Positions 138-59,040 of a DNA stretch of 64,000 nucleotides are shown piece by piece. Source of the DNA: Closterium sp. NIES-65 (Eukaryota; Streptophyta; Zygnematophyceae; Desmidiales; Closteriaceae). Position numbers and translations under genes: made by a program. The number at the start of each line of letters is the position of its first letter. Position 1 is the first letter of the stretch. The stretch is taken from NCBI GenBank assembly GCA_948144175.1, contig CANXME010002429.1, positions 1 to 64,000 of the forward strand, given 5' to 3'. The notes beneath the pieces were generated by a model. It ran no database searches and was not told the DNA's origin. It saw nothing but the letters and a program-made list of their open reading frames with translations.

Positions 138-204
138 GCGTACAGCTAGCTAGCTAGCTGCATCAGCGGCGCATACTCTCGCAATTGTCATCCAGCCCCT
201 TCGT

Positions 205-218
205 TTGAGACGTCTCAA
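205..218. repeat. ACGT-core palindrome between direct repeats
   Basis: TTGAGACGTCTCAA is a perfect 14-bp palindrome. It is flanked by two identical 19-bp copies of ATTGTCATCCAGCCCCTTC at 184-202 and 221-239. It is the first member of the palindrome family described in the findings. Confidence 0.85.
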
Positions 219-363
219 CGATTGTCATCCAGCCCCTTCTCTCCTCTTTCTCCCCTTCCATCCCCTCGCTCCCGTTCCTCCCGCTCCCGTTCCTCACTCT
301 CCCTCCCATTCCCTTCCCTCCCATTTCTTCCCATCCCAATCCCTTTCCCCCTTGTGCTCTCAG

Positions 364-3300
364 GACACGGGCTACATGCCTCTCAAGCTCGGCAGCAGAG
401 TAGCTCTCATGGTGAACAGGTATGGTGAACAGGTGTGTTTTAGAGATTTTCAAAAAATCCCTGCAGCTCTCATGGTGAACAGGCATGTTTGTTCATGATA
501 ACATGTATGTTTGTTCATGAACAGTTGTGTTTGTTCATGAACAGTTGTGTTTATTCATGAACAGCTGTGTCTGTTCATGATTGCCGCATCGCCGTCCTCG
601 CTTGTGTTCCCCCATTTCCCCCCCCTCTAGTCTGAGCGCAGCGCTGCTTCAGCCAAGTGTACTCTCTCTGGTGTCCCCATTTCCTCCGCTCCCTCTTCTC
701 TCCACCTCCCCCGTCCTCGTCCCCCGCCCTCCCCCTTCCCCATTCCCCCAGCCTGGGCGCAACGCCAGCTATTGCAGCAGGCAAGGCTGTGCCACAGCTT
801 TCCCCCCACCTCCCCACCTCTCCCCCACCCCCACCCCATCCTCTCCCCCCTCACCACCATCCCCCCAGCCTGGGTAATATCAACCATGGAGGTTATGGTT
901 GCGGCAAGCAAGGCTGTAGCACAGCCACCTCCCCTTTTCTCCAACCCAACGTTCCGATCCCCCCACCCCCACCCCCCCCTCTCCCCTTCCCCTCGTGCTC
1001 CCTCCCCTTTCTCCCCAAGCCTGGGCGCAACACCAGCCATGGAGGTCATGATTGCGGCCGGCAAGGCTGTAGCGCAACTACAGGTGAGGATGATCTTTTT
1101 AGGTGCGTCAGAAGCAGGCAAGGCTGTAGCGCAACACTCGTTGTCCTAGAACACGAGTTGATGGAAGTAAGGCCTCCACAGCCCACCTGTCCGCTATTGA
1201 CAGCTCCTGCAAACAGTGCCGCTACCTCTCACTTACGAGCGATTTTGAGAATTCTCATAAGCGCCGCTACCACTCACTTACGAGTGATTTTGAGAATTCT
1301 CAAAAGCGCCGCTACCACTCACTCACTCTGACACTCTGTATGTAACTCTCTCTGTCCGCGTCTGCCTGCACAGCATGTCTCTGCACCCATCTACACCGAT
1401 AATCACGCCCATGTACACCTCTTCACTGCTCTGTACCCCACTGCACCCCTCTGCAACCCTCTGCAACCCTCTGCATCCCTCTGCACACCTTGCGCTTGCA
1501 TGCACCATGGAAGGTGGAGCATGGGCTGGCAGTGGAGCGAGTGTATGCAGGCCATTTCATGACTTCCCTCGACATGTCAGGTGCTGTCAGGTGGTGTCTG
1601 ATGCTGTCAGGTGGTGTCAGGTGGTGTCAGTTGGTGTCAGGTGCTGTCAGGTGACAGGCTCTGCCGCAGACACACAGGCACCTGAAAAGCCTTCCTTCAT
1701 ATTCGCTGACTTGGTTTGACTTTGGTTGACTCGCTTTGACTCTTCTGTCAACCCTGTCCAGTATGCTTGTTCTTTTGTTCTTCTTGCGCCTCTCCCACAG
1801 GCCTCTCCCTCTCAGTGCTTAAGGTGGACGATCAAGTGCTGCAGAGGCTAGACGCCCCAACCCAACCTGCACCCCTATGTTTGTTTTCTTGCATTTTTTC
1901 TTCCGTTGATTGCCTCTGTCCCTGCCACAGGCCTCTCCCTCTCAGTGCTCAAGGTGGACGATCAAGTGCTGCAGCGACTAGACGCCCCCACCCTCGCCCC
2001 TGCATGGCCCAACGCCTGCCAAGGTGGGCTCCCACGCATGCCTGAGTTGAATGCGCCAGCCTATACATTCCTCTTCACACCAAGAAGGGGTTTGAGACTC
2101 TGAGACTCCTGGAAATAACTCGGATGAGAGAGGAGAGAGTGCGCAAATTCCCAAGCTCCATATACATTTGCGTGAGAGAGGGTGTGAGGGAGTGCATGGG
2201 AGTGTGTAAGCCACCCTTCTCAAGACACCCTTCTTTCTCTCTCCACTCACTATCTCTCTCACCATTCCCCCCTTCCCCTCCTCCAGGTGCCCGTCCAGCT
2301 ACCAAGGTGCCAGTGCCACTCCCCCCAGCCCCACCAGGCTCTCAACCTGTACGTTTCCCTCCATCCATCCTGGCCTTCTGCTATGAACAAGTGCTTTGAG
2401 ACGTTTTTTATAAGACGTCTCACAAACGACTGCGATGCCCCCCGTACCTTCCGTACTACCTCCATGCTCCCCATGCCGCCATCCATCCCGCTTTCCCCCC
2501 CCCCCCCCCTCCCTTCCCCCTCCCTCTCCTCCCAATGCACTTGTGATCCCACCGTCTTACTACCACCCCACACCCTTATGCCTCACATGCCGCCCACATC
2601 CCGCATACCCCGTGCCCCACCCCTTCCGCACCCCCCACAACCCTCCAACACCCCCCCAGTCAACAGAGGAGCGGCGGGGCGGTGCCTGGGAGGCGCATTT
2701 GAGGGGGCGCTCAGGCTGTTCTGGCTCTGGCAGTAACGGCAAGCTCGGAATGATGTGACTTTTGAGTCGACTCAAAAGTCACCTCAATTTGAGGGGGGGC
2801 TCAGGCTCTAATGGCTCTGGCAGTAACGGCAAGCTCGGAATGATTGCTATAGAACACGTGTGCCCCACCCACTACCCACTCCGTTGTGCCCACATGCCCC
2901 CGCACCGACGCCCCTCCCCCCACCCCGGAGGCATCAGCATGTGAGCGTCCAAAAGGAATCAACAGAGGAGGGGCGGTGCCTGGAGCGGTGCATCCGAGGG
3001 GGCGCTCAGGCCGTGCTTGAGTGCATGGAATGACACACCTCTCCCCCATAACCCCCATGCTCCCAAAACCCCCTCGCAACCCCCAGGCATCAGCATGTGA
3101 GCGCCCCAAGGAGTTGACAGAGGAGGGGCGGTGCCTGGAGCGGTGCATCCGAGGGGGTGCCCAGGCCGTGCTGGCTCTGGCAGTAGACTTGAATGCGTGG
3201 GATGACACACCTCTCACCCATAACCCCCATGCCCCCACACCTCACCTCACCCCCCAGGCATCAGCATGTGCGCGTCCAAAGGAGTTGACAGAGGAGGGGC

Positions 3301-6300
3301 GGTGCTTGGAGCAGTGCATCCGAAGGGGCGCGCAGGCCGTGCTGGCAGCAGTGGCAATCTTGATTTGAATGCAGTCGAACACCTGTGCTCCACTCCCCTG
3401 TGTCCCACGCGTGCCTCCACACCTCCCGCTCCCCCCAGGCATCAGCATGTGAGCGCCCCAAGGAGTTGACAGAGGAGGGGCGGTGCTTGGAGCGGTGCAT
3501 CCGAGGGGGCGCCCAGGCCGTGCTGGCTCTGGCAGCAGACCTGAATGCATGGGATGCCAAGATTGGCGATGGGGACTGCGGCAGCACGGTGAGAGGAATG
3601 GGAGAAACTTGTTTTAGGAGGGAAACAGGGAGGGCTCTATGCGAGTGTAATAGCCTTCAATGAAGCAGAGGGGGGTGCCATGCCGGCTCTGGCACCAGCC
3701 AGACCTGCCTGCTGCACTGCCCTCAGGCCGTGCTGGCACTGAGTTTTTGAGAATTTCAAAAAACTGTCTGCACCGCCCTCAGGCCGTGCTGGCAGTGAGT
3801 TTTTGAGAATTCTCAAAAACTGCCTGCACCGCCCTCAGGCCGTGCTGGCAGTGGCAGCCGACCTGAATGCATGGGATGCTAAGATTGGCGATGGGAACTG
3901 TGGCAGCACGGTGCGGTGGGAGGGGATTGAGTGAGGGGTCTTGCTGTTGACTCACCAGTAGTTGAATCATATGCACATGGGTCGAGTCAATGGTGCTGGC
4001 TCTGGCAGCTGACCTGAATGCATGGGATGCTAAGATTGGCGATGGGAATTGCGGCAGCACGGAATAAGGGAGAGGCTTCGGAGGGGGAACTTTGAGCTCT
4101 TGGGGAGGGGCCTTGTTGTTGAGTTGGCCCATCGCTCAACGTTGGCCTCCCTGCTTCCATTCCAGGTAGTCTGCTCTGATGGATCGAACCTCAAGGCTTA
4201 GTGGGAATATATGCTTATTGCTTATATACGCTTATCGTATATACGCACTCTTATATACGCTATACGCTGTAGGGACGGGTTTGGAAATACGTTTTTTCGG
4301 GCAGAAAAAAAACTTCCCGGGCAGGGTCAAAAAAAGGCGCGCGGGGGGGGGGGGGGTATGGGGGTGGGGTATGGGGCCTGAAGTTTCAGAGATTTTTTTT
4401 TTCCACATTACACATATACCACGGCCTACACAACTACTGTCATCACTACTATCATCACTATCATCACTTACCATCATCACTTACCATCACTACTATCATC
4501 ACTACTCCATCAGGACCATCACTTCTCTCTAAGACAAGCTACGTACTACTACTCCTTAGGACTAGCCGCCCACAGCAAGCCACATTTGCCCCCTCTAGTT
4601 AGCGTACTCGTCTTCGAAGATGTCGTCTTCGCCTTCCTCCTCATCCTCTCCCTTCGTCTCGTCTTCCAGCCCATTGTATCCCGCCACTCGAGGGGCATTA
4701 GTCCCATTCCACTGCCACCACTTCACCATGCTATACTTTCCCTCTTTCACTAGCTTCCTCTGTGCCACGGCTTTCGGCATCCCAAAAGAACCCTTCATGT
4801 TAAGGAACGTCCTCAACCCGTCCCCCAGCTCAAGCAAGATGTCGCACGCGTCATCCCCCCCATCCCCGCGGCTCGCAAGGAACTCGGCCTGCTGGCTGAT
4901 GAACGCCTTGAAGACTTTCGTGCACTCGGGATCAGCGCCGAAAATATCTTCCTCCTGATTCGCGGGGTTGAGGATGCGGCCAGCGACATGCATGGCGCAT
5001 GCGAGGCTGCCGTCCCAGCGGTCTCTGAGGATGCGGCGGATCTTGTCCTTGTCCCCGTCGCTCAGCTGCTCCTCGTCCGCATCGAGTAAGCCCCCCACGT
5101 CCTCAGTCAAATGCAGCATCAAATTGTACAGCCTCCCCATCATCCCCACGGCATGCCCGTCCGTCTGCCTCATCACCTTAAAAGGCAAGCTTCAGCAGTG
5201 CGACGAAGAACTCGGCCGTCTTCCACCAGGCGGCATCATGGATCAGCGCACTGAACCCGTCACACGATTTCTTCCGGTCCCCTACCGCCTACTCCTTCCA
5301 ACCCTCGCTCGTCACCATGTTGGTAAGGCCGCCGCGCATCGCACATAGTCGGGATATGGCTATGTAGTTGGTCCCGAATCGGGTTCCAGCCGGCTTCAGC
5401 GCCTGCAGAACCTTCCCCTCCACCAATTCCGGCTTCCGCAGGTACCCTCGGGTCCAGTGGTGGTTGCGGACGAAGCTAGATATCTCCCTTCCTTGTCGAC
5501 CACCAGCTTAGCCCATCCCATCTTCCCGACATCTTCCATGAGAAGATCCAATACGTGAGTGGCGCACGGCACATCCTGAATGTGCGGCCACTCCTGTAAG
5601 AGTTGCTTCACCGCCACCGCATAGTTCGACCCCCCGTCCATGCAGAACGCAACAACGTTTTCTGGACCCACTTCCTCCACCACGGGCCTAAGAATCCCCG
5701 CCACGTATTCTCCGGTTTCCTCTCCATGTTGCAGTCAATACAGTCGGTGAAGACGGCGCCAGAATCGTTTACGAGAAGCACGTTGGCCTGCGGCCTGCCG
5801 TTGCGGTCTGTCATCATGTTGGACGAAACCGTCACGCCCGTCCTCTTCCAGCTCGCCTTAATGCCCACCAAACCCTGCTCGATTCCGTTGCGACACGAGA
5901 GAAGGCCAGCACCGCCGATGTATCTCCTCTTGGGAGGGACGTAGTCGATGCCGACGCGCTTGACGAGGTTCAATGCATTGACCATCAGAGGATGGTCAAT
6001 GTGGCGCTCGGGGATATGGAGGGCGGCCCAAGCAAGCGCAAGTGCCTCGTCCGCTTCTCTCTTTCTTGCGCATCGGATGGCAGCACCAGTGTATACGTTG
6101 CTGCAGAACTTGCACTCGTACTGCTGAGCTTTTCCCTCGACCCTCTTGATGATGCGGAAGTGCTTGAAGACGGCATGGTCAACGTCGGGGAGATACTCCC
6201 GTGCCTCGGTTAGAAGAGTTTGCGAACTGCCAACGGTGTTAACTGACGGTGGCGTTAGAGGAGAGGTAGTAGTCGTCGACATAGGCACCATGCGCTAGGG

Positions 6301-9300
6301 AATGCCTAGTGCTCTGCTGGTAGCGAGAGAAGACCTAATGAGTTGGATGTTGGGGGTGTGCTTGTTTTATGGCGAGTTGATTGTGGGAGTGGGAAGATGG
6401 CCAACAAAAATTGGAGAGGTGTTGGTTGCGAAGGGTTTGAATGCGGTACTGATAGTGAACACCAAAATGTGAGGGAACGTGCAGGCGCGACTCGACGAAC
6501 GTGACTTTCCATTTGCGACACGAACTTTCAACCCACGTCAACGCTAGCACACAGCGCGGGCGTGCCATCTGACCGCGCCAATGTCTTCGTCGTGCAATTC
6601 CGAAGCGAACCGTATAGGTTGAAATTTTCTGGCCGGGCTGCCCCAAAAAAAAATGGTGAGCGTATAGCGTATTCGATAGCGTTTAGCGTTTTGCGTATAC
6701 ACGCTAGCGTATACACGCTAAACGCAAACAGGTTTTTGCGTTTATTCCCACTTAGCCTCAAGGCAGCCCCACATGCCCTCTTCTACCTCTTCTTCTCACG
6801 CGCTCATTGCTGCCAGGCCAGGCTGCGTTGGTTTGACTTTTGAGACTTCTCAAAACTCAAACCAACATATCTGATGGATCGAACCTCAAGGCAGCCCCAC
6901 ATGCCCTCTTCTACCTCTTCTTCTCACGCGCGCATTGCTGCCAGACCAGGCTGTGTTGGTTTGACTTTTGAGAATTCTCAAAACTCAAACCAACATATCT
7001 GATGGATCGAACCTCAAGGCAGCCCCACATGCCCTCTTCAACCTCTTCTTCTCATGCGCTCATTGCTGCCAGGCCAGGCTGGCACCTACCTTCCACATCC
7101 TCGCTTGCTCACCCCATCCACCTTTCCCCCACCCCTTCCCCTCCTATCTCCACCCCACCTTGCCTGTCCCATCCCATCCCCCCCTTGCGTTCAGATGAGC
7201 CGTGGGGCCAAGGCAGTTCTTGAAGCTCTCGCCTCAAGGTCTGTACGCCTGTCTCCCCACGCCGCCTTTGTTCCTTCTCTGCCTTTGCCTTGTCTCACTC
7301 ACGCCGCCTTTGCTCGTCCTCTCTCCCCTTCTCTGTCGCCCTTCACCCTTCTGTCTTCCTACCCACTAACGGACCTCCTGGCTCCTGCCCCCCCACTCTG
7401 CAACCCCGACTCCCTGTCCTCTTTTGTCCTCCTCATTTGTTCCCTCCCCCTCCCCTTGCGCCCCAGATACCCCCTAAATGATGCACCAGCGACAATTAGG
7501 GAGATGGGCGCGAGTGTGCGGTGCTCCATGGGAGGGACGAGTGGAGTGATGTGAGTGTGCGAGGGTGTGGTGTGAAGGAGGGGAGGTATTTGAATGTGGT
7601 TGCTTGTGCTGCCATGTCCCGGTGACAGTGAGGGACATATGCGCGAGTGTGCGCTGCTCCATGGGAGGGACGAGTGGAGTGATGTGAGTGTGTGTGGTGT
7701 GTGTGAGGCTGGTGGGAGGAGAAAAAGAGGTGTGCTTCTGGCATGACTTGGGGACGAGTGGGTTGATGTGAGAGAAGAGAGGGAGATCTGCGCGAGGGTG
7801 TGGTGCTCCATGGGGGGAACAAGCGGAGTGATGTGAGTAGCGGGGGGGGTGGGGGAAAAATGTGCTGGCACTGCTTGCTTGCACTGCCATGTGCTGGCAC
7901 TGCTTGCTTGCACTGCCATGTGCTGGTGACAGTGAGGGAGATGGGCGCAAGGTGTGCTGCTCCAAGGGGGGAACAAGCGGAGTGATGTGAGTGGGAAGGG
8001 AAAGGGGTGGGAAGGGAAAGGGGAAAGGGGGTGAAGGGAGGGTGGGGATGTGACGGTTGTTATTTGCCCTCTTTCGATCACTGTTTGCCCTCTGCTTGCC
8101 TACTGCTTGTCCTACCATGCGAATGATGAAAGAACTTGTTCAAGAGTTGCACAAATCATCTACTAACTGTGCGGCTTTGCCCTTCTTTGTTCCACTCCTC
8201 TTTCTACACGACCTGTTTCCTACCCTCTCCGGCCCTACCCTGCTCACTTCTCTGGCTCACTCCTCCTGCTCACTCCTGCCCACCCCTGCCCACCCATACC
8301 CACCCATGCCCACTCCTCAATCTCTTGCCTGTGCACATCTCCCATACAGATACGACATCTTCTGTCGCTCTGCATACGTGAAGCTGAGGGAGCTCGCAGG
8401 CCCAGCGATGCACTTGCAGGCACTCGTTCACCCTTCCTACCCACACCTTCCCACACCTGTCTATCTTGCCTGTGCGCATCTCCCATACAGATACGACATC
8501 TTCTGTCGCTCTGCATACGTGAAGCTGAGGGAGCTCGCAGGGTCAGCAGCACAGCCCACCCCTGCCCACTGTTCGTCCTCTCCCTCCCTCCTCTCCCTCC
8601 CCTTTCTCCTCTCGCACCTGAACCCTTCAATTTCTCCTCTTCTCAGCTTCATGTATGCAGGGCGATTGGTCTGAACCCTTTCCAGCTTCATGTATGCAGG
8701 GCGATTGGTCTGAACCCTTTCCAGCTTCATGTATGCAGGGCGATTGGTCTGAACCCTTTCCAGCTTCATGTATGCAGGGCGATTGGTCTGAACCCTTTCC
8801 AGCTTCATGTATGCAGGGCGATTGGTCTGAACCCTTTCCAGCTTCATGTATGCAGGGCGATTGGTCCGAACCCTTTCCAGCTTCATGTATGCAGGGCGAT
8901 TGGTCTGAACCCTTTCCAGCGTCATGTATGCAGGGCGATTGGTCTGAACCCTTTCCAGTGTCATGTATGCAGGGCCGGTCTTCTTGTCCAAAACCAGCAA
9001 TCCAACCCCTTTGAGTCTTCGAGTCCCCTTTGAATCTCCTCTATCAGAACGCATCTTCAGGCGCCCTCCACTCAAATGCCATCCATCAATCTATCCTTCA
9101 GTTTATTCCGCTTCAGTTATTCTCCCAATTTCTCCTCCCTTCTTCCCCCCTCTGCCTCTCTTCCCCTGCCTCCCTATCATCACCAGGGGCGGCTGCATTT
9201 GAGGCGGCGGTGGCAGCGGTGAGTCTGTACGGCGGCACTCAAGCCGGCGACCGCACCATGCTGGATGCTCTGCTGCCACGCTCTTGCGCAGCATCCAGAC

Positions 9301-27956: not shown

Positions 27957-27987
<31 letters not shown>

Positions 27988-45270: not shown

Positions 45271-48200
45271 CTACTGCATAACCACCTTACCATCCAGGTC
45301 TCCTGCATTTAATTCTTCATCAGCGGATTTGTTAGTGTTACTGTTAGTTGCCTTGGCTTGCCTTCCTTGCTTCCTCTGAGTGCGAGTGCTCACCGCACGA
45401 GCAGCAGCAACGGCTACATGTTGTGTCAGCGCGGGTTTCAATAACTCCTCCTCCACATGACGCTTGGCCCATGATTTGTCCGCCCCCATCTTGACCATAT
45501 CCTGCAATGGAAAAAAAATGCATGGATGAGACATAACCAGACATGACAAAATGCATGCATCACATACAGTAGACGTGCAGTATTATCCACGAATGGGATA
45601 TCATGCATGCATGGGATAACGTGGGGTACTATACATACCCGGAGCACTACATGCATGAAGTACTGTACATGCATTAAGTTTCATACCTGCATACACGCAC
45701 TACCACCATACCATGACAGCCGTACCTGCACCATGGCTGTCATGCCTCGGCTCTGCTCCATGATAGACGCGTCGAGTGACACATACGCAGGGAAGATGGC
45801 CCTTGCATACACCTGATGACAGCATTGGGATTGGGAGGAGGGTGATGGCGATAAGGAGGTTAGGGTGTTGAGACATCTCATAACTGCATGATAGTCGCGT
45901 CAAGTGTCACATACACAGGGAAGATGGCTCACGCATACACCTGATGACAGCGTTGGGATTGGGAGGAGGGTGATGGCCATACGGAGGTTAGGGTGTTGAG
46001 ACATCTCATAACTGCATGATAGTCGTGTCAAGTGTCACATACACAGGGAAGATGGCCCGCGCATACACCTGATGACAGCATTGGTGGGAAGGAGGGTGAT
46101 GGCAAAGACAAGGAGAGGGGACAGTGGGACAGACAGACAGACAGACAGGCAGACAGGAAAGAACAACCTTAGAAGGACTTTAGAGGAGCCTTAAAAGTCA
46201 GCAATGATAGAAGGAGCTGGGGGATGGTAGACCAATGAGCTGGGAAGATGGCCTGCGCATACACGCCATACAGGGTGGCACGCCATGCAGAATGGCATGC
46301 CATGAGAGGTGGCACGCCATGCAGAATGGCATGTCATGAGAGGTGGCACGCCATGCATGTGCAACCAGCGACCTTATCCAGTAGCAGCCAGAATGGCACG
46401 CCATGCAGGGTGGCACGCCATGCAGGGTGGCTGGCATGCCATGAATGTGCAATCAGCGACCTTATCCAGTACTCCCTTGATGTGACCTTCACACATCCCC
46501 TTCCCATTCAAGTACCGCACCTTCAAGTCATTTTCGTTCGGCGTGCCAAGAGCCTCGTTCGGCGTTCCACGAGCTGACACCTCTGCACCAACAGTTGCAC
46601 CAGCAGTTGGCCCAGCCGCACTTCCTTCAACGTCAGCACCGATCACATCAGCTCCTTCCTCCTCCCCACGCACCGTTGCTGCAGAAGTGGCATCCACAGC
46701 AACAACATCCTCCTCACCATTGCCATCACCCTGAGCACCGATAGGAACAGCACCATCAGCAGCAAGCTCAGCGCCCACAGCAACAGCAGACGTTTCAGCC
46801 ACAGCCTCAGCTTCGGCTTCAGCCTCAGCAGCAGCGTTGCTCTTGCCAGTAGCAGCAAGCTCAGCGTCTGCAGCAACAGCAGAAGGTTCAGCCACAGCAG
46901 AAGGTTCAGCCACAGCCTCAGCCACAGCAGAAGGTTCAGCCACAGCAGAAGGTTCAGCCACAGCCTCAGCCACAGCTTCGGCTTCAGCCTCAGCAGCAGA
47001 GTTGCTCGTGCGCATGCCTCCAGCTCTTTCCTTCGTGCTGCTCTCCTCGCCTGCTCCCAGCGCCTCTTCATTGCTCTCCTCGCCTGCTCCCAGCACCTCT
47101 TCATTGCTCGCCTCGCCTGCTTCCATCTCCTCACCTCTGCCTCCACCTGCCTTATTCTCCGCTACCTCTGCACTTCCCCCTTCACCCAATGCTGTCAAGT
47201 TTGCAGTTCTCCCTTCGCCCAGCGACCCTGCCTCTGAGCTTCCCTCTTGACCCAACGCTGTCCCCTCTACACTGGTCCTTTTGGCGAGCCCAGTCTCCTC
47301 CACGCTTCCGTCCATGCTCTCCTCCTTTTGGCTCCTGATCTTCTCCCCCTTTCTCCACCCTCTCCTGCCGCCACTGCTGCTGCTCACGCTGCCACTGCTC
47401 ATGCTGCTGCCAACTTCACTGCTATTGGGTGAGCCAGAGAGAGTATTGCTTTCGGTGTTTTCAATACTTGATCCAAAGCCTTCAAAGGACAGTAATGAGG
47501 CGTCTACTGGCGAGGCAGGGGTGGGCGGCAGGAGTGCTGACTTGGCAGTTGCTATCGCACTGTTCACTGTAGCAGCCAGTTTCAATTCCGTTTCGCTCAG
47601 TTTGGACTCTAGCGAGGAAACCTTTTCTTCAAGAAGCCTCGTCTCTCTGTCTGATGCCTCCTTTCTCTCTGCAAGCAACGCTTGCAGCTCATTGGCCCGT
47701 TCGGCTTCCTGCAATCAGGCAACGACACATGGAACACAACGCAGTGACACAGGTCAAACTCCAGACACGGACCACATACTACATCCCTCTTTTTCTCCTC
47801 CTGCGCCTGCTTCTCAGTGGCAGAGACAGCAGCTCTGAGCCGTGCTGTGTGCAGCTGCCCCTCTCCCCTCAAACTCTTACTCTCCCTACCTCTCCTCTCC
47901 CTTCCCCTCCCCTCTGCCTCACCTCTTGCGTCTGCTTCTCAGCAGCAGAGACAGCAGCTCTCAGCCATGCCGTGTGCAGCTGCCCCTCTTCCCGCAACAC
48001 GCTGTTGAAAAATACTCAATACACCCTGCAAACTCCCTCTCATCCCCCCACCCCTCTCCTGTCTCTCTCACCTCTTCTCAGCTGCAGCAACAGCAGCCCT
48101 CAGCCGTGCCGTGTGCAGCAGCCCCTCTTCCTCAAACTTTTACTCTCTTTACCGCTTCGCTCCATACCTCTCGTCTCTCGACCTTTCCTCTCCTCTCTCT

Positions 48201-51200
48201 CACCTCTTGTGCCCGCTTCTCAGCGGCAGCCACAGCAGCCCTCAGCCGTGTCGTGTGCAGCAGCCCCTCCTCCCGCATCGACTCCACCTGCTCCTCCAGC
48301 CACCTCACCGCCCCCTTGCTCTCCTCCACCTCCTCCTGCGCTGCTCTCTGTGCGTTCAAGCCAAACACAGGGGGTGCAAAAGGTGAGAACAAGTTAGGTA
48401 TACCCCACCTGCTCCTCCAGCAACCTCACCGCCCCCTTGCTCCCCACCACCTCCTATGCTGCTCACTCCAGTTTATGGTACTGAAATTTGAGTCGACTCA
48501 AAAGTCTCCCCCTTGCCTTCCTCCACATCCTGTGCTGCTCACTCCAGTCCAGTTTATGGTACTGAAATAGAGGTTGATCAGGGCGAGTAATGAGGGGAGC
48601 AGAGGAGAGGGAGGGAAAGGAACGAACACAACAATGTCTAAGAACAACTGTCTTTGGATATGCATTAAGAGTTGGAGAACCGCTTACCACTCTTGAAATT
48701 CTGTTGAGAATTCTGTTGAATTCTGTGGAGATTTCTGTTGAAATTTCTGTTGAGATTTCTGTTGAGAGTTCTCAAAAGGGAGTGCAAGAGCCGCTTACCA
48801 CTTTGGCTTCCAGGCTGGATGTCACTCGTGCCAGCTCAGCGGCTGCCTGCTGGCGGGAGGCTGCCAGCTCAGCATGGCGCTCCGCAAGGTGCTGCTTGAG
48901 CGTGCTCTCGCGGTCTCTGAAGGAGGCAGCAGAGTGGCGGCTGGTGCGCTGCAGCTGATCGACTCGCTGCTTTAGCAGCCTGTTCTCGCTCATTGCTGCT
49001 GTCAGACGCGTGTTCAACTGGGAAGGTTTTTTAGGGTAGTAGAGAGGGGTGAAACGTGGTAAACAGGGGTGAAAGGGGTTGAGAAGGGGCGAAAAAGAGA
49101 GTCCGCAGAGTTAATCCCCTCAGTGTCTTGGTTTCGCGGTCTCTGAAGGCGGCAGCGGAGAGGCGGCTGGTGCGCTGCAGCTGATCCACCCACTGCTGGA
49201 GGAGCCTGTTTTCGCTCACTGCGTCTGTCAGGCGGGTGTTCAACTGAGGGATGGAGGCGATTCGGGGGGATAGGCAGGGGTGAAAGGCGGTAAACAGAGG
49301 TGAACTGGGTTGAACAGGTTTGAAAATGGGTGCAAGCAGAGAGGATCTCGTCAGTGTCTTGGTCTCTGAAGGCGGCAGCGGAGAGGCGGCTGGTGCGCTG
49401 CAGCTGATCCACCCGCTGCTGTAGATTATTTCGCCTATTGCTGCTGTCAGCCGCGTGTTCAACTGTCACAGGGATGTTAACGGGTGAACAGTGATGAAAA
49501 GGGTGGAAACGGGGTGAAAGGTGGTGAACAGGGGTGAAAAGCGGAGAACAGGGGAGTAAGCAGAGATAACATTGTCAGTGCCTTTGCCTCATGGTCCACG
49601 TGTGCCCCATGCATGCCTCACGTGTGCACAATGCATGCCTCACGTGTGCCCAATGCATGCCTCACGTGTGCCCAATGCATGCCTCACGTGTGCCCAATGC
49701 ATGCCTCGCGTGTGCCCCACCCCACGTGTGGGCATGGTTGCCAGCAGCAGGGAAGCATACCTTGTGGTTGCCAGCAGCAGGGAAGCATACCTTGTGGTTG
49801 CCAGCAGCAGGGAAGCATACCTCGTGGTTGCCAGCAGCAGGGAAGCATACCTCGTGGTTGCCAGCAGCAGGGAAGCATACCTCGTGGTTGCCAGCAGCAG
49901 GGAAGCATACCTCGTGGTTGCCAGCAGCAGGGAAGCATACCTCGTGGTTGCCAGCAGCAGGGAAGCATACCTCGTGGTTGCCAGCAGCAGGGAAGCATAC
50001 CTCGTGGTTGCCAGCAGCAGGGAAGCATACCTCGTGGTTGCCAGCAGCAGGGAAGCATACCTCGTGGTTGCCAGCAGCAGGGAAGCATACCTCGTGGTTG
50101 CCAGCAGCAGGGAAGCATACCTCGTGGTTGCCAGCAGCAGGGAAGCATACCTCGTGGTTGCCAGCAGCAGGGAAGCATACCTCGTGGTTGCCAGCAGCAG
50201 GGAAGCATACCTCGTGGTTGCCAGCAGCAGGGAAGCATACCTCGTGGTTGCACGGCACGGAAGCGTTAACTCGTGGCTGGAAGGCAGGCAATGGATGTCC
50301 ACAAGCAGGCAATGGATGTCCACAAGCAGGCAATGGATGTCCACATGCAATCCCTAACTCATGGTTGGTGATGAAGAGGTGGTCACGAGAGCGGGTAACC
50401 TCCTTCAGCTGAGCTTCCGCGGCAGGTTTCACCATGCGCCATCGGACATTTCTGCCCCACCCATACGTGCTGTGCCCCACGCGTGGTTGCTATCCAAGCC
50501 AGCAGCGGTCAATCCCTACCTCATGGTTGGTGATGAAGAGGTGGTCACGAGAGCGGGTCACCTCCTTCAGCTGAGCTTCCGCAGCAGGTTTCACCATGCG
50601 CCATCGGACATTTCTGCCCCACCCACACGTGCTGTGCCCCACGCGTGGTTGCTAGCCAAGCCAGCAGCGGTCAATCCCTACCTCATGGTTGGTGATGAAG
50701 AGGTGGTCACGAGAGCGGGTGACTTCCTTCAGCTGAGCTTCCGCAGATGCCACTCGGCGCTCCAAGTCCCTTGCCTGCACCACTGCTGCGTTGCGCTCTG
50801 ACTGCAGGGGGGACGAAGAGGGAGCAAGGGCAAGGGAAACAGCCAGGGTATGAGGAGTCTACTGGAGAGGAAGCGCATGAAACACAGATTCCACCCGGTG
50901 CTGCAAGTCACTCGCCTGCACCACTGCTGCATTGCGCTCCGACTGGAAAGGGGTGGGGGAAAAAGGGGGGAGATATGGGGACAGGAAGAGGAAAGAGAGG
51001 ACACATGACCCACAGTTGCCACTGCCCGCAGCCGCCCTTCCACGTCCCTCCGATCAAAGGCTTCTGACATCCTTCCCAGCCAACGAGCAGCAGATTCTGT
51101 CAAAGGAACCTCAGCTCAAGTTGTCTACTGTACTTGCCCATAACGTACTCCTTGCCCCTCCACATCCCTCCACATCCCTTCACAACCCTCCGCACCCCTC

Positions 51201-54200
51201 CACATGCATTTCTTGCCCTTACATATCCCTCATCTCACCTTAATAGCAGCATGCTGGGACAGGTACGTCTGCAAGTTCACCTCCTCCTCTCTCCTCTGCT
51301 GCACCATTGCCCCCTCGCTCGCCCTCAGCTGTGCTCCCACCGCCCGCAGCCGCCCCTCCACGTCACTCGCCCGCTCGCTCTGCACGCGGTGCGCCGCCCG
51401 CAATGATTGCGCCAGCTGGCGCTTCTCCAGCAGTGCCTTGCGCAGGCGAGTGCGCAACTGGCAGGGGGGAGGGAAGGGGGAGGAGGGGGAGAAAGGAAAA
51501 AGGGGGAGAAATGGGGCTGGAAAGGGGTGCTGAAAGCAACTTGTCAGCGCTTACCACCATGTTAGACTGGGAAACAAAAGTTACTTCCCCTCTCTCCCAC
51601 GCCCCCACACAGGCACATTTACATGCGCACACACACCACACATCACTACTCACCACCACACGTTACTCTCTTCTCCCCCCCATTCCTCCCCACACATGCG
51701 CCCACACACACCACACATCACCGCTCACCACCGTGTTGGACTGGGATACAGAGTCCTGCTGCTTCGTCAGCACGTCCAGAGATGTGGTCAGCCCTGTGAT
51801 CTGATTGGTCAACGCAGACAGCTGACTCGTCACACTGTTGCGCTCCGCCTGCCGGCACACGGGCACGACGGGTGGGGTGTGGGAAGGGGCGAGGGCGGGT
51901 GCGAGGAAGAGGGTGAGGGAGGGTGCGAGGAAGGGGGTGTGGGAGGGGGTGTGGGAGGGGGTGTGGGAGGGGGCGAGGGCAGGGGCGAGGGAAGGGATGT
52001 GGGAGGGGGTGTGGGAGGGGGTGTGGGAGGGGGTGTGGGAGGGGGTGTGGGAGGGGGGTGTGGGAGGGGGTGTGGGAGGGGGCGAGGGCAGGGGCGAGGG
52101 AAGGGATGTGGGAGGGGGTGTGGGAGGGGGTGTGGGAGGGGGTGTGGGAGGGGGCGAGGGCAGGGGCGAGGGAAGGGATGTGGGAGGGGGTGTGGGAGGG
52201 GGTGTGGGAGGGGGTGTGGGAGGGGGCGAGGGCAGGGGCGAGGGAAGGGATGTGGGAGGGGATGTGGGAGGGGGTGTGGGAGGGGGTGTGGGAGGGGGTG
52301 TGGGAGGGGGTGTGGGAGGGGGTGTGGGAGGGGGTGTGGGAGGGGGCGAGGGCAGGGGCGAGGGAAGGGATGTGGGAGGGGATGTGGGAGGGGATGTGGG
52401 AGGGGATAAGCCGGAGGGGTACGTGTGGGCATGGTTCAAAACAGCTTTGGAGCATATATGTACACAGGTAGCATTCAAGGCGCATGGACAAACTAACTGG
52501 TGCCTCAAGCCGTGATCCCTAAAATGGTCATACAAACTGTGTACGTGGTTTACATGCCTTGGGGTGACTTTTGAGTCAACTCAAAAGTCAAATCCGTGAT
52601 CCCTAAAATGGCCATACCAACTGTGTACGTGGTTTACATGCCTTTGACTGTCACATCACATGCCCTTTACTGCCACGTGGCTGTCATCCCTTACTGCCCG
52701 GCCACTCATCCATTTCACCTGCAGCGAGTCACTAAGAGCCTGCAGGCAGGCCACGTTCTGTGATGCTGCCTGCCAGTGATTACCCCATGCAAGAGCCTGC
52801 AAGAGCCTGCAGTCAAACCCTCCTTTAGCCCCGATTGCTCCTACAGCCCTCTCAGCTCATCAGCAGCAAGCGAGCCACGTTCTGAGCTGCTGCGAGTGAT
52901 AAGCCCACCCACATAAAAGCCCCCTGCCATTACTGCCTCTACAGCCCCTACAGCCCCTACAGCCCCTACAGCCCCTACGGCCCCTTACTTGTTTCTCCTG
53001 CAGCACGTCGTCGAGTGCCTGCAGGCGAGCCACGTTCTGCGCTGCTACGAGTGATGCCCCCACATCCCCACATTCTCTCCACACTCTCACCATCTCTCCC
53101 TTGAAGAGTGGGCTAGCGCATGCACGCACACAGCCCGCCCATTTCACCTGCAGCGAGTCGTTGAGTGCCTGCAGGCGAGCCACGTTCTGCGCTGCTGCCA
53201 CGGACGCTAAAGTGCGCACTTCCAGAGCCTGTCAGCATTGTCAGATTCAACAGAGCAAGGCGAGCATGTGAATGAACAGGTGTGGCATGTCGTGTCATGG
53301 CATGGCATGACATTCTGCTGCTGCCACGGACGCTATAGTGCGCACTTCCAGAGCCTGTCAGCATGGCAGCATGGCAGCATGGCAGCATGGATAAGCAAAC
53401 CAGCATGGAAGCAAATCAGCATGACAACACGGCAGGTGCATGGCAAGGGTGGAATAGAGGGGGATCAGACAGAGAGGAGCACGCGAGCGATAATGTGAAT
53501 GGCAGGGCAATGCATGGCATGGCAGGGCAGGGCAGGGCGTGGAATGGTATAGTATGGGAGGGCGTAGCATATTATTCCCCAATTGCTGAGGTCCCCCAGT
53601 CATATGTCTCCTGCAAGCACCTTACTGAGGTCCCCCAGTCATATGTCTCCTGCAAGCACCTTACTGAGGTCCCCCAGTCATATGTCTCCTGCAAGCACCT
53701 TACTGAGGTCCCCCAGTCATATGTCTCCTGCAAGCACCTTACTGAGGTCCCCCAGTCATATGTCTCCTGCAAGCACCTTACTGAGGTCCCCCAGTCCCTC
53801 CTGCAGGCCCTTTCCCCCCATACTCCCCACTGGTATCCCGCCCACTGTCCCGACAGTCTCACCTTAGTAAGGTTCCCAAGTCGCCCCTCCAGCCCCCTGC
53901 CCGCCTGCACCTCCAGCTGCAGCACGCGGTTCCATCCCCTCGCCCTGCCCTTTTCACCCGATAGCCAGCACCCTGGTGAAACTAGTCACTCTCACTCACC
54001 TTAGTGAGGTCCCCCAGTCGCCCCTCCAGCCCCCTGCCTGCCTGCCTCCTGCTGCAGCGAGCAGTTCACGTACCTCGCCCTGCTCTTTTGCCCACATAGT
54101 CAGCACCTTAATGGCACTTCACACACTCTCCTGCAAGCTCCTCTCCCCTACCCACCCCATCCTCCCATTGCTATCATACTTGCACTCACCTTAGTAAGGT

Positions 54201-54888: not shown

Positions 54889-57816
54889 CGTGCATGTGTG
54901 TGTGGTGTGGGTGTTTTGCATGTTCAGATAACAACTCAGCCCACCTCGGGGTCATTGTCCCCATCCATCTCGTCAAACACCGGGTTGGAAGGAAAGCCCG
55001 TACGTGCCACTGCCTCAAGGTGCGCAGATACTTCACAAAACGCACTAGGTACCTGGCCCCTTCCATCTCGTCCAACACAGCGTCGGACAGCCCATACGTG
55101 CCACTCCCTCGATGCACAGCGGATACTCGAACCATCCACATGCACAAATCACCTCAACCCACCGTCACATTTGACGCACCTCGAGGTCTTTACCGCTCTC
55201 CATCTCATCAAAAGTCGGGTCCGACAGCCCATACGTGCCGCTGACTCGTTTCACGAACTCGTCCCACTGCTGCTCCAGGCGCTCGCGCGCTGATAGGGGG
55301 CGTGGGGGACGGACGGGAGCGTGGGGGTGCACGAGGAGAGCATGGGCGCACAAGTGGGGAAAGTTGGTCTTATGAGGGAGGGAGAGGAGGAGAGGGGGAG
55401 GGGACGAGGGAGGTCGACGGGTGGAGCAGGAGAGGAAATGCTTTGGGGAGGAATCAAAGCAAAGGGCAACTTCTTTTGAGTCGACTCAAAAACAGGCTCA
55501 AAGCAAAGGGCAAATTTTTCTTAGTCGACTCAAAAACAGGCTCAAAGTAATGGGCAACTTTTTTTTAGTCAACTCAAAAACAGGCTCAAAGCAAAGGGCA
55601 AAGAGTACCTGTGCTGCATGTTCTTTTGGCGTAACCCTCTGTCCATTCAGCTGCGCACTTTCCCCACATAATGTTTGCTCTTAACATTCACTTTCCCCCT
55701 TCCCTCACCTTTTCCCCCTCCAGTAATGGTGGTGGCGACGTTGGTGGTGACAGCAGCACCAACAAGGATTTCCAGAGATGCAAGCAGAGGAACGGACTCG
55801 ATGGCCTGGAGAAGAGGGGAGGGAGAGGAGGGGAGGGGAGGGGAGGAGGGGGATGGACTGCTGATTGGAAGGCGCGCGTTTCATCTCACCTGGATGACCT
55901 GAGCGTTTCAATTCACCTGAGCGACCTGCGTGTTTCATTTCACTCACCTGATAGACGTGCGCGTTTCATCTGAACCACGTACGCGTGTCATCTCAGCTGA
56001 ATGACGTGCGGTTTCATCTCACCTGAACAGCATGCGCGTTCCATCTCACCTGGATGATGTGTGCTGTGACCTGCACGCCCACTGCCGCCGTGGCAGCCCC
56101 CGCAATGAGCCATCCAGCTGTCTGCAGCTGATTGGCGGAGAGGAGAGGGGTTGAGCAGTGGAGCAAGGCGGTAGAGGAGGGGGTGGGGGAGGATGATATG
56201 AGTGGACGGGAGGGGTTGGAGCGGGGCGCGGGAGTGGAAGGTGGGAGGGAGAAACAACGGGGAACGAGAACGAGTGAGAGGGTAACTGTGGATGGAATAC
56301 AGTGGATGGAATACAGTGGATGGAATACGTTTGTGCATTTCCAGCTGTGGGCATCAAAGTCAGTGTGTGGCATCAAAGTCAGTGTGTGGCATCAAAGTCA
56401 GTGTGTGGCATCAAAGTCAGTGTGTGGCATCAAAGTCAGTGTGTGGCATCAAAGTCAGTGTGTGGCATCAAAGTCAGTGTGTGGCATCAAAGTCAGTGTG
56501 TGGCATCAAAGTCAGTGTGTGGCATCAAAGTCAGTGTGTGGCATCAAAGTCAGTGTGTGGCATCAAAGTCAGTGTGTGGCATCAAAGTCAGTGTGTGGCA
56601 TCAAAGTCAGTGTGTTGCATCAAAGTCAGTGTGTTGCATCAAAGTCAGTGTGTTGCATCAAAGTCAGTGTGTGGCATCAAAGTCAGTGTGTGGCATCAAA
56701 GTCAGTGTGTGGCATCAAAGTCTGTGTGTGGCATCAAAGTCAGTGTGTGGCATCAAAGTCAGTGTGTGGCATCAAAGTCAGTGTGTGGCATCAAAGTCAG
56801 TGTGTGGCATCAAAGTCAGTGTGTGGCATCAAAGTCAGTGTGTGGCATCAAAGTCAGTGTGTGGCATCAAAGTCAGTGTGTGGCATCAAAGTCAGTGTGT
56901 GGCATCAAAGTCAGTGTGTGCATCAAAGTCAGTGTGTTGGCATCAAAGTCAGTGTGTGGCATCAAAGTCAGTGTGTGGCATCAAAGTCAGTGTGTGGCAT
57001 CAAAGTCAGTGTGTGGCATCAAAGTCAGTGTGTGGCATCAAAGTCAGTGTGTGGCATCAAAGTCAGTGTGTGGCATCAAAGTCAGTGTGTGGCATCAAAG
57101 TCAGTGTGTGGCATCAAAGTCAGTGTGTGGCATCGAAGTCAGTGTGTGGCATCAAAGTCAGTGTTTGGCATTACACTCGCTGTGGAAATAGCCAGGCTGG
57201 TGCGTGCATATACTCGATGTGCTTATACTGCTCTGTGCTTACATTAAAGTACTTGGAATCAGTGCTGGTGTCAACCACCCGCTTCAAAAAGTAGTCAAAT
57301 GAAGCACCTCAAACCATGCCCTGTGCTCGCATCACCATGTGCTTACATTGAAGTACTTGGAATTGGTGATCGTGTCAACCACCCGCTTCAGAAAGCTCCT
57401 CTTCCAAGCCGCTGCCACTGCAGCCGAGTCCAGCCCACCCCACGCGGCAGCGTCGCCAGCCGTCGGATCAATCTGATCAACGTCCAGGATCGTGTGATGC
57501 GACTGGATCGGAAACTCTCCAGAAGCAGCCCCCCCAGCGGCAGCATTCGAATCTGGCGAAGCAGTTGAGGTGGCAGGCGAGGAAGGGGAGCGTGCGGTGG
57601 ACTGGGCAAAATCGGCGAAGGGAGGCGAGGAGGAAGCGAACGGGGAGGCGGACGAGGAGGCGGACGAGGAGGGGGAAGGGGAAGGGGAAGAGCCTGGAGA
57701 GGCGGGCCGTTCGGACCCACTCTGAGCGTACCCTCTAACGTCCCCTCTCCCATACCCTCTCCCATACCGCCCTTCGTACGGAGCCCCCTCAGACCGCCCC
57801 ACGGATCCCCTCTCAT
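45271..57816 (-). CDS. Large coiled-coil protein with two hydrophobic segments
   Basis: No family recognised with confidence. Exons in gene order: Ser/Pro/Gly-rich first exon ending 57347 (its start is unclear; the frame stays open upstream of 57816), then 56127-56050, 55805-55709, 55289-55180, 54642-54190, 53228-53148, 51848-51729, 51457-51239, 50801-50682, 49017-48799, 48347-48204, 47708-46461, 45812-45726 and 45501-45271. All junctions from 56127 on are GT/AG and in phase, about 1,068 codons. [16 protein letters not shown] is followed by two hydrophobic stretches ([40 protein letters not shown]), whose A-I-x-x-V-P-L-L spacing recalls the CAAD/CURT1 membrane domain, a weak resemblance. Then come heptad-rich exons typical of long coiled coils, a Glu/Ala-rich segment and a C-terminus [20 protein letters not shown]. 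Possibly a membrane-tethered scaffold; two adjacent genes remain possible. Confidence 0.65.
45869..46265 (-). repeat. Copies of penultimate coiled-coil-gene exon, 128-bp unit
   Basis: The exon 45812-45726 is followed (upstream in the gene) by partial copies at about 45940-45895 and 46070-46022, and a shorter one near 46250. They retain the TCATCAG|GTGTATGC acceptor or part of it. TGAGACATCTCA stands at the unit junctions (45869-45880 and 45997-46008). Confidence 0.8.
46260..46445. repeat. GGTGGCACGCCATGC repeats
   Basis: Repeated GGTGGCACGCCATGCAGAAT / GAATGGCATG(C/T)CATGAGA units, and a second block GTGCAA(C/T)CAGCGACCTTATC at about 46358 and 46448 that duplicates the donor of exon 47708-46461. 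Confidence 0.8.
46840..47010 (-). repeat. AEPSAVA coding repeats
   Basis: Within the long exon 47708-46461 of the coiled-coil gene. On the minus strand it reads (V)[17 protein letters not shown].., from 15-18 bp units. In frame and open. Confidence 0.85.
47810..48200 (-). repeat. Copies of coiled-coil exon 48347-48204
   Basis: Three partial copies of the [12 protein letters not shown](A)EK(Q/R)AQE segment, near 47870-47800, 48000-47925 and 48120-48070, most with a following GTGAG donor. Confidence 0.75.
48455..48570. repeat. TCGA palindrome between duplicated segments
   Basis: TTTGAGTCGACTCAAA (48487-48502) separates two copies of CCAGTTTATGGTACTGAAAT (about 48471 and 48549). Confidence 0.85.
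48670..48810. repeat. Duplicated donor segment with degenerate palindrome
   Basis: GAACCGCTTACCACTC (about 48678) and GAGCCGCTTACCACTT (about 48787) duplicate the donor of exon 49017-48799. Between them lie TTGAGAATTCTG repeats and TTGAGAGTTCTCAAAA. Confidence 0.75.
49040..49470 (-). repeat. Two further copies of the VDQLQRTSR exon
   Basis: Exon 49017-48799 encodes [37 protein letters not shown]. Copies at about 49245-49130 and 49462-49360 keep [19 protein letters not shown] and [20 protein letters not shown] respectively, the first with its acceptor. Confidence 0.82.
49735..50255. repeat. 30-bp minisatellite, 17 copies
   Basis: GTGGTTGCCAGCAGCAGGGA.. with almost no variation except CTTG/CTCG. 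On the minus strand each unit reads ..AACCACGAG|GTATGC, very like the end of the neighbouring exon 50801-50682 (ACCAACCATGAG|GTAGGG). It looks like an expanded exon end plus donor. All frames are open because the period is divisible by three. Confidence 0.95.
50350..50680 (-). repeat. Two copies of coiled-coil exon 50801-50682
   Basis: CTCATGGTTGGTGATGAAGA.. occurs at about 50358, 50520 and 50683 with 162-bp spacing. The extra copies keep [20 protein letters not shown] and the GTAGGG or GTTAGGG donor but not the exon's first half. Confidence 0.85.
51860..52410. repeat. 12-bp GTGTGGGAGGGG array with higher-order unit
   Basis: Runs of GTGTGGGAGGGG broken at regular intervals by GCGAGGGCAGGGGCGAGGGA, giving a higher-order unit of about 84 bp repeated four times. 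It is strongly G-rich on the plus strand and intronic in the coiled-coil gene. Confidence 0.92.
52510..52645. repeat. Inverted repeat between 51-bp direct repeats
   Basis: TGACTTTTGAGTCAACTCAA.. (52565-52590, arms TGACTTTTGAGT) lies between two copies of CCGTGATCCCTAAAATGG.. at 52510-52560 and 52594-52644. Confidence 0.88.
52722..53365 (-). repeat. Four extra copies of the QNVARLQAL exon
   Basis: The true exon 53228-53148 ([27 protein letters not shown]) has partial copies at about 53052-52990 ([20 protein letters not shown]), 52893-52858 and 52770-52722, and one of its first part at about 53362-53325. Confidence 0.85.
53583..54075 (-). repeat. 39-bp array derived from an exon end and donor
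   Basis: CTTACTGAGGTCCCCCAGTC.. repeats about 5.5 times to 53800, with isolated copies near 53870 and 53995. On the minus strand each unit reads CTTGCAG|GAGAC..GGGGGACCTCAGTAAG|GTG, a complete mini-exon with acceptor and donor. It matches the end of exon 54642-54190 (LGDLTK|). Confidence 0.88.
54650..54910. repeat. (GC/GT)n, poly-G and (GT)n microsatellites
   Basis: CGCGCGCGCG(TG)n at 54650-54680, a run of G to about 54698, and (GT)n of about 35 units at 54820-54905. Confidence 0.92.
54943..55140 (-). repeat. Two copies of the GTYGLSDP exon
   Basis: The true exon 55289-55180 has copies at about 55120-55045 ([16 protein letters not shown], with a GTACCT donor) and 55012-54943, which is frameshifted near FDEMDGD. 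Confidence 0.8.
55445..55610. repeat. 50-bp repeat with TCGA palindrome, three copies
   Basis: CAAAGCAAAGGGCAA.. followed by TTTTGAGTCGACTCAAAA (55474-55491), TTAGTCGACTCAAAAA (about 55530) and TTAGTCAACTCAAAAA (about 55567). The series shows decay of the palindrome. Confidence 0.88.
56340..57170. repeat. 19-bp minisatellite, about 43 copies
   Basis: GGCATCAAAGTCAGTGTGT in near-perfect head-to-tail order. Because 19 is not divisible by three and the unit has no stop in any plus frame, all three plus-strand frames are open for 300 or more codons. It lies in the first intron of the coiled-coil gene. Confidence 0.97.
57240..57300 (-). repeat. Copy of first coiled-coil-gene exon end
   Basis: Encodes [16 protein letters not shown] followed by GTAAGC, a copy of [16 protein letters not shown] at 57394-57347. 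It would be in phase as an alternative. Confidence 0.8.
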
Positions 57817-58124
57817 AACGCCGTGCTGCGTCGTGGTGACTCGCTCGGTCGGAGCCGGCCGTTGAAGGCCGTGAATCGGCTGACGGGTTGTGGGACCAGC
57901 AGGAGTTGCTGTTGCCGTGACCGTTTCGAAAGAAGTGGGACCTGCTTGGGTGGGCGCACGGGAAACGGGGAACGTGGGGTGAGAGAGGGGGAGGGAAGGC
58001 TTCTGAGAACTGAGGAGAGAGGATGACCCGGCCAGCGGGAGTAGCCGTTGCCAGGGGTGTTGCGAGAGACGTGGGATGGTGAGATAAGAAACGGGAAATT
58101 TGGAAAGTAGGGTCAGAGGTCGAA

Positions 58125-58345
58125 GTGGAAGCAGAGGGGAAAATGGAAACAGAGGGAGAAGTGGAAGCAGAGGAAGAAATGGAGCAGAGCAGAGGGGGAA
58201 GTGGAAGCAGAGGGGGAAATGGAAACAGAGGGAGAAGTGGAAGCAGAGGGGGAAATGGAAACAGAGGGAGAAGTGGAAGCAGAGGAAGAAATGGAGCAGA
58301 GCAGAGGGGGAAGTGGAAGCAGAGGGAGAAATGGAGCAGAGCAGA
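58125..58345. repeat. GGAAATGGAAACAGAGGGAG repeats
   Basis: Alternating GAAATGGAAACAGAGG and GAAGTGGAAGCAGAGG units of 18 bp with GAGCAGAGCAGAGGG inserts. No convincing gene; it may be upstream of the coiled-coil gene. Confidence 0.85.
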
Positions 58346-58714
58346 GGGGTGAAAGAGGCGGTCTTACTTTCCGTTGAACTCGGAGTGAGACGCGTGGCAT
58401 TTCTGGCCGCTACGCTTGAACGTTACTGGTTGCAGGAATGTGGGTATCAGGGAACAGCAAGGTAACAAATATTCAGGGGACAAGCAGGGATTGTTCGTTT
58501 AGGTAACTGAAAGCCGGGGGATAAGCAGGGGACGATGGGCTCGGCGAGGGGAACCTAGTCACGTAATGAGCCTGAAAATGTTGACTGGAAAAGCCTACAT
58601 TGCTGGCGTAAAGAAAGCAGCAATAATTTTATTTGGTAGACGAGGAATTCAATAAATTTTGACGATACAGAAACTGGCAAACTGTCAGGCAAACCGGACA
58701 ATTGAAACAGAAGA

Positions 58715-59040
58715 GCGGTTCATACCGCATCGCCATTTTGGCTTGCCGGTCCGAACTAGGAGCCGTTGGTGGCTGCTCTTGAGCTGACTGACACCTTTTG
58801 AGGCCCCTCAAAAGACGAAACATAAGCGCGGGTTAGGACCGTACCGTGTCGCCATTTTGGCTTGGCGGTCCGAACTAGGAACCGTCGCTGGCTGCTCTTG
58901 AGCTGACTGATACCTTTTCAGATGCCTCACAAGAGTTGAAACAGAAGAGTGACTATGTTCCGTACCGTGTCGCCATTTTGGCTTGGCGGTCAGAACAAGG
59001 AGCCGCCGCTGGCTGCCCTTGAGCTGACTGACTCCGCCCT
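58715..59040. repeat. About 115-bp tandem repeat, three copies, with palindromic junction
   Basis: GTCGCCATTTTGGCTTGGCG.. occurs near 58730, 58850 and 58970. CCTTTTGAGGCCCCTCAAAAG (58794-58814) and a decayed form CCTTTTCAGATGCCTCACAAG (about 58913) stand between the copies. Confidence 0.85.

Follow-up and report, generated by a model that had tools for sequence, protein, structure and literature searches.

Short palindromes in many dispersed copies have been described for the mitochondria of yeast and the organelles of Volvox carteri, and direct duplications of tens of bp are known from staggered DNA breaks. Here we analyse a repeat of the alga Closterium sp. NIES-65 in which such features occur side by side: a palindrome of the form TTTTGAG-NNNN-CTCAAAA (together with its relaxed and decayed forms called P) that stands between two copies of a local sequence (called X). 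The window under study comprises bases 1-64000 of a contig of 235,727 bases (C2131) within an assembly of 874,075,685 bases.

Like P, the yeast GC clusters, e.g. GC42, are described in the available part of the source as short, palindromic, dispersed and putatively mobile with target duplication, with elements that merge (PMC4478555). According to the same text the clusters are mitochondrial and their flanking direct repeats are AG or ACT (2-3 bp), whereas P is nuclear by all signs and its duplication measures 19 to over 100 bp. The palindromic repeats of Volvox carteri organelles are likewise green-algal, short and present in many copies, with loops of 3-5 nt and nested insertions, as far as the accessible text goes (PMC2670323). 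They reside in organelle DNA, nuclear copies being inert transfers according to the authors, whose main text lacks the string "duplicat". P shares with both systems the short palindrome and the many dispersed copies, and differs in not residing in organelles. For tandem duplications at staggered breaks the overhang between breaks on opposite strands is duplicated over tens of bp, as for X, while the part of the article at hand describes no constant palindromic insert between the copies (PMC8355091). Direct duplications of tens of bp are found at the P loci as well. Work in rice and Arabidopsis has reportedly dealt with tandem duplications from staggered breaks, too.

Miniature inverted-repeat transposable elements (MITEs) and foldback transposons resemble P in their inverted-repeat structure, non-autonomous nature and high copy number. 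In MITEs and other elements with terminal inverted repeats the tips are the conserved part and the target duplication is short and of nearly fixed length. P has neither property: the consensus of its arms fades outward and the duplications range from 19 to 147 bp. Insertions of long and short interspersed elements (LINEs and SINEs) and of Penelope-like elements have variable target duplications and ragged ends, as P does, yet these inserts are asymmetric, truncated at one end and tailed, whereas P is symmetric and short. At the P loci the asymmetric tailed insert is absent, and a variable duplication is present if X is taken as a target duplication. A satellite or minisatellite would show one X+P unit at many loci; here X differs between the listed loci, while P is common.

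Compared with MITEs, with GC clusters and organelle palindromes, with retroposons and with satellites, P lacks in each case at least one of the defining features tested. No element class known to us combines a common centre with free tips and a long duplication of variable length. No described element of this form was found among the literature matches listed, as judged from titles and abstract openings, nor did the titles of the listed matches on palindromes in Closterium name a nuclear element. The string "palindrom" is absent from the main text of an article that deals with genome size in Closterium; its available part describes several sequenced strains of the Closterium psl complex, one of hybrid origin, which is relevant if our host belongs there (PMC10407611). 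We therefore provisionally regard the P-X system as categorically new, on the basis of the failed membership tests and the negative literature result rather than of a shown mechanism.

A dispersed palindrome family between direct repeats

Exact matches to TTTTGAG-NNNN-CTCAAAA were found at 30,327 places of the whole assembly (array members counted), compared to 4 places for the reversed pattern. The assembly-wide scan that an earlier sequence-only reading of the window had proposed thus bore out the palindrome. P is one dispersed family with a shared centre. The contigs that carry its sites measure 153 kb to 2.0 Mb, the sampled stretches have a G+C content of 54-57%, and by all signs P is located in nuclear and not in organelle DNA. 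Viral contigs contained 0 exact matches to a P 18-mer and prokaryotes 0 to a P 24-mer. Within the window, TTTTGAGNNNNCTCAAAA at up to 2 mismatches had 43 matches at an expectation of 0.31, with 21 of the 43 lying inside two tandem arrays.

Further data come from a 264-kb sample, made up of the window and the stretches L005-L024, and from a 314-kb sample in the final test for direct repeats. The sampled stretches are non-random, since those from contigs C6, C9 and C10 were picked because exact sites were already listed there. In a region of the window's own contig that was not picked for sites (74001-124000, L025-L029) there were two relaxed sites in 50 kb; the motif is far rarer there than in the window and its density is patchy.

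Relaxed sites were defined as TTGAGNNNNCTCAA, such that TTGAG...CTCAA is fixed by the search itself. The 95 relaxed sites of the 264-kb sample had the cores TCGA (45), ACGT (13), GCGC (11), GATT (8), AATT (6) and others (12), the core being self-complementary at 75 sites. All eight GATT cores belong to one array, and each of the 12 others is one change away from a self-complementary core. The length of P is about 18-32 bp for TCGA cores and reaches 52 bp for ACGT cores, and three typed P sequences fold into hairpins with a 4-nt loop. The same sample yielded 33 listed half-motif sites, most of which resemble decayed palindromes or arrays, a few being without visible partner. Inspection of the 264 kb by eye revealed no longer copy with internal sequence between P-like ends.

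The loci have the layout u-X-P-X-d, in which the X copies are direct, not inverted, local and different between the loci shown, while P is common. Their presence was scored with a dovetail test, in which the suffix of the left flank is aligned, allowing gaps, to the prefix of the right flank and a score of at least 12 is a pass. The 42 exact sites taken from the 314 kb were the first of each cluster, which leaves out later array members and keeps the first array unit. Dovetailing repeats were present at 34 of these sites, compared to 4 of 59 other perfect palindromes (arm of at least 6) and 572 of 3000 random positions (Fisher test, 6e-15 and 2e-17, respectively), in agreement with the earlier reading, in which the palindromes stand between two local copies. 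A stricter ungapped test was passed by 22 of 51 exact sites, 3 of 65 other palindromes and 45 of 600 random positions, and the first version of the test by 40 of 45 sites and 28 of 120 controls. An earlier random control (264 of 1500) is poorer than the one with 3000 positions, because draws near a motif were skipped yet kept in the 1500. Local direct duplications are very common in this genome even without P, as seen from the random positions that pass.

At most sites tested the X copies adjoin P directly on both sides. For the 34 passing sites the aligned length of X was 19-147 (median 64) with an identity of 0.80-1.00 (median 0.92). Among 36 cluster-first sites the ungapped X cores measured 19-84 bp, one array excepted, and at 25 of the 36 the insert including the palindrome was 16-36 bp long. 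A young clean case is L011 9301, where 60 bp of identical X enclose the insert ACTTTTGAGTCGACTCAAAAGTC. In others X is identical over 28 bp (L011 6807) or 23 bp (L013 3339), or measures 20 bp with 95% identity (L012 8973). At L011 4111-4290 nearly identical X copies surround two P of different core (GCGC and ACGT), which suggests repeated events at one target; copying of one unit would not give this arrangement.

A motif-blind scan of the 264 kb for close repeats with a spacer of 8-90 bp provided 532 candidate pairs, 43 of them with the motif in the spacer. A perfect palindrome with an arm of at least 7 was present in the spacer of 40 pairs, and every one of these carries TTGAGNNNNCTCAA, some loci yielding more than one pair. 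The motif or its half occurs in 27 of 114 clean two-copy pairs, the other 87 having neither; for spacers of 16-50 bp the motif or its half is present in 15 of 27 clean pairs. X X pairs with a spacer of at most 2 bp make up 5 of the 114.

The identity of the X copies drops with the decay of P (Spearman -0.44, p 0.008, n=35 of 95 isolated candidates), a coupling that shared local mutation rates would likewise produce. Read from outside into X, the junctions have a weak purine-A-A preference at both ends (33 sites including array members; 19 without neighbours), for which the A run of P itself may be responsible. The X ends may show slight microhomology to the arm template. Splice-site-like words occurred in 12 of 40 X, a weak excess over the fraction of 0.1855 for random stretches. 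None of the listed open frames around X resembled a clear conserved exon, with no ortholog search made.

Raggedness and mirroring of the arms

For TCGA-core sites the half unit reads AGGTGACTTTTGAG, with AGGTGAC as recurring arm. Outside the TTGAG fixed by the search, the agreement over 66 distinct halves is 0.91-0.92 for the two adjoining T, 0.80 for C(-8), 0.59 for A(-9) and 0.55 for A(-14), beyond which it reaches background. The length of arm retained at 24 TCGA-type sites (48 arms) varies from 5 to 14 nt and has its maxima at 7-8 and 13-14 nt. With core ACGT, longer arms starting with CCACGTG inside the insert occur at L014 5293 and L023 2605, the latter being a perfect 52-bp palindrome that a composite insert at L030 resembles. 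CCACGTG-like sequence is also found left of P at L005 3846, L017 7617 and L022 8136, where X contains all or part of it or an assignment is impossible, such that the ACGT arm consensus is tentative.

The two arms of one locus agree at 4.11 of 8 outer positions, compared to 2.99 (sd 0.18) after permutation of the right arms within the core class (57 sites; 0 of 2000 permutations reach 4.11). TCGA sites alone provide 3.93 versus 3.21 permuted (p 0.001). The arms diversify, and both sides tend to change together. Outer arms had previously been taken as locus-specific yet complementary. Further mirrored, locus-specific differences agree with that description, while the recurring AGGTGAC of the TCGA class and the CCACGTG shared by two ACGT loci limit how locus-specific the arms are. 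The mirrored arms point to an intramolecular copying step, or to the spread of source copies that were kept symmetric.

Mirroring is also seen at the border to X: on average, the insert mirrors the adjoining X bases to a depth of 1.29 bases, compared to 0.53 with X taken from other loci (28 usable of 40 sites; 0 of 5000 permutations as high), an excess whose sign ordinary microhomology would produce as well. By eye and after the fact, the right arm at 39005-39020 mirrors the last five X bases, and at 34284-34317 the right arm reaches into X with its last five bases, AAGTG of the left arm mirroring the first five of X. At L019 4020 the half unit is iterated, the lower strand reading AGGTGACTTTTGAGTCGA and then most of AGGTGACTTTTGAGTCGA again. 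This suits repeated templated extension and, coming from one locus, is a lead and not a proof.

Loci and arrays of the window

Coordinates of the P loci and arrays are collected in Table 1. From 16 places at which the palindrome had been called clear between two local copies, 15 pass the dovetail test, the exception being 55474-55491 (score 11.0). Out of the places called decayed, those at 24585, 35645 and 39005 pass, while 440 (score 11.0) and 48765 (score 0.5) fail, the latter being unsupported. Every coordinate of the earlier list was inspected and the observation is confirmed on the whole; the pairs 6827/6955, 25508/25715 and 45869/45997 turned out to be units of tandem arrays, so that there are fewer independent loci than entries. 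The motif arrays at 35757-36580 and 37976-38489 are additions to that list.

Table 1. Palindromes, flanking repeats and arrays within the window (strand where assigned)
Feature	Position	Strand	Details
P, core ACGT	205..218		dovetail score 19.0; X-P-X at 184..239 (+); X 184-202 and 221-239, 19 bp identical
45-bp unit array	1210..1326	+	P (AATT) at 1243-1260 (one mismatch) and 1288-1305
P GTGACTTTTGAGTCGACTCAAAAGTCAC	2755..2782		X 2697-2754 and 2787-2844, 93% identical
P (AATT), X both sides	3798..3821		decayed P at 3745 in preceding 56-bp unit
128-bp unit array	6756..7081	+	P at 6827-6866 and 6955-6994; non-palindromic filler after each right arm, e.g. 6867-6883
207-bp unit array	25323..25838	+	P (TCGA) at 25504-25521 and 25711-25728
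P (ACGT), long arms	34284..34317		X 34240-34276 and 34313-34349
Decayed P (TCGA)	35644..35661		X 35572-35625, copy 102 bp downstream
36-bp unit array	35757..36580	+	some units hold P-like CTTTGAGGATTCTCAAAT
P (TCGA)	37223..37240		X ~63 bp both sides
Array X(PX)12	37976..38489	+	identical units with a 22-bp X and a 19-bp P; X at both ends
Half P (right arm only)	39005..39020		X 39 bp both sides
128-bp unit array	45866..46011	+	P-like TGAGACATCTCA at 45869-45880 and 45997-46008
P (TCGA)	48487..48502		X ~55 bp both sides
P (TCAA)	52565..52590		X ~54 bp both sides, 94% identical
P (TCGA) and decayed P copies, ~44-bp units	55474..55579	+	X weak, score 11.0
P (GCCC, one change from GCGC)	58795..58814		X ~95 bp; decayed second P at 58915

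Outside the window the array from L011 7972 reads X(PX)5, again with X at both ends. With X-P-X as the first stage and expansion as the second, arrays would be expected to start and end with X. At the end of the array at L022 8136 just the first bases of X are present, either because this copy is truncated or because X is short there, the remainder being a long left arm.

Other arrays of the window, at 8644-8975, ~49.7-50.3 kb and ~56.3-57.2 kb, are open-frame tandem arrays without palindrome match. An open stretch of 2668 codons with acidic and low-complexity repeats covers 25900-33906 (+). On the minus strand, 5608-6294 has a weak DUF659 match (E 6e-8, just below the curated cut-off), which we take to be a feature of hAT-like transposase remnants. 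For an LRR/F-box-like open reading frame at 17573-19477, 13 of the 14 best-scoring matches are Closterium proteins (30-47% identity), the top match being a conifer protein, in line with a zygnematophycean host near Closterium.

Origin of the palindrome and its flanking repeats

With confidence slightly better than even, we favour P as a dispersed non-autonomous palindromic insert that lands at widely staggered breaks, where the overhang is duplicated into the two X. Duplication and insertion would occur in one event, and hairpin copying probably makes or maintains the arms. Initially, cuts showing little preference for sequence would be made in the two strands at a distance of roughly 20-100 nt, and the staggered ends would receive P sequence by joining or by synthesis. 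Fill-in of the single-stranded stretches would then convert the overhang to two X copies. A hairpin step may make or restore one arm from the other, hence the mirroring even of diverged arms; alternatively, identical tails on both 3' ends may anneal via the self-complementary 4-nt core. Some X-P-X loci would later expand to X(PX)n. The cutting and the fill-in have a host precedent, since in mammalian cells breaks with 3' overhangs lead to tandem duplications by CST-guided Pol alpha fill-in, as described in the available part of the source (PMC8355091).

Annealing of two identical 3' tails through the core would account for its usual self-complementarity, and the iterated half unit at L019 4020 fits such tails too. 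X divergence that tracks P decay is expected if X and P date from one event. A palindromic insert with a long, variable target duplication had been suggested before; it is the best-supported reading given the single P family, the differing X, the X-ended arrays and the joint X divergence and P decay, without being proven. A more far-reaching version appears doubtful to us, namely a new selfish or repair-borne element, whose 18-bp, mostly self-complementary centre is copied onto both ends of a widely staggered break, the tails annealing via the 4-nt core, such that the palindrome is rebuilt at each insertion between the target copies.

Several observations weigh against an insertion at staggered breaks. 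Neither a source element nor an enzyme was found. No empty single-X allele was seen, in a 264-kb sample that holds few paralogous stretches, of which the single one overlapping a P locus lies in a minisatellite and is uninformative. The dovetail test failed at 8 of 42 exact sites, and its background is high with 19% of random positions passing. Of 62 sites with 3-4 mismatches, 11 have dovetailing repeats, which is close to background; some of these sites may be chance matches, which may account for part of the correlation between X identity and P decay. The core lacks self-complementarity at 20 of 95 sites (8 of them in one array). As to the arms, the inner conservation is in part a matter of construction, because the sites were chosen by TTGAG...CTCAA. 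Eight GCGC sites show no mirroring past position -8, and spread of already symmetric source copies could be an alternative origin of mirrored arms. The mean mirror depth at the X border is inflated by array members, in which X runs into the next P, and is ~0.9 for 18 other sites assessed by hand.

Among the alternatives, P could be a MITE consisting of terminal inverted repeats only, moved in trans by an unseen transposase that makes long target duplications. The dispersed copies, the recurring TCGA-core arm and the direct repeats at both ends would fit, yet the tips of P are ragged, X varies from 19 to over 100 bp and a copy with internal sequence was not recognised in the 264 kb inspected. 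Long variable duplications together with ragged tips disfavour a classical transposase, and we consider this origin unlikely. Variable duplications and ragged ends would also fit a small hairpin RNA that a LINE or Penelope-like enzyme reverse-transcribes into staggered nicks by target priming, as would the weak A preference at the junctions, which may, however, stem from P's own A run. Since the insert has only ~18-52 bp, no 3' tail and no asymmetry, such target-primed insertion is quite unlikely.

A different order of events, in which P was inserted at the junctions of pre-existing tandem duplications that are fragile or hairpin-prone, draws on the many duplications without P, i.e. the passing random positions and the 87 of 114 clean pairs with neither motif nor half. 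It is improbable, given that the required targets are just the 5 X X pairs with a spacer of at most 2 bp and that X divergence climbs with P decay, within the limits of that test. Many P loci are arrays, such that one may think of ordinary two-unit minisatellites with a palindrome in the unit by chance; with P common while X differs between the loci shown, and with two arrays reading X(PX)n with X at their ends, this is very improbable. Hardly credible is purely local fold-back template switching, or an artefact of assembly or library. Mirrored arms would be in line with a fold-back, yet the same centre at 30,327 places excludes its purely local form, and the diverged X (median identity 0.92) and decayed P are unexpected for an adaptor or assembly artefact. 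From the fold-back footprint proposed earlier there remains the hairpin step that the mirrored arms suggest.

If P is indeed an insert that duplicates its target at staggered breaks, ~30,000 exact copies, plus decayed ones, would record staggered-break repair in an alga of the sister group of land plants. An 18-bp sequence would then be shown to be able to spread, and the X(PX)n minisatellites of this genome would be explained.

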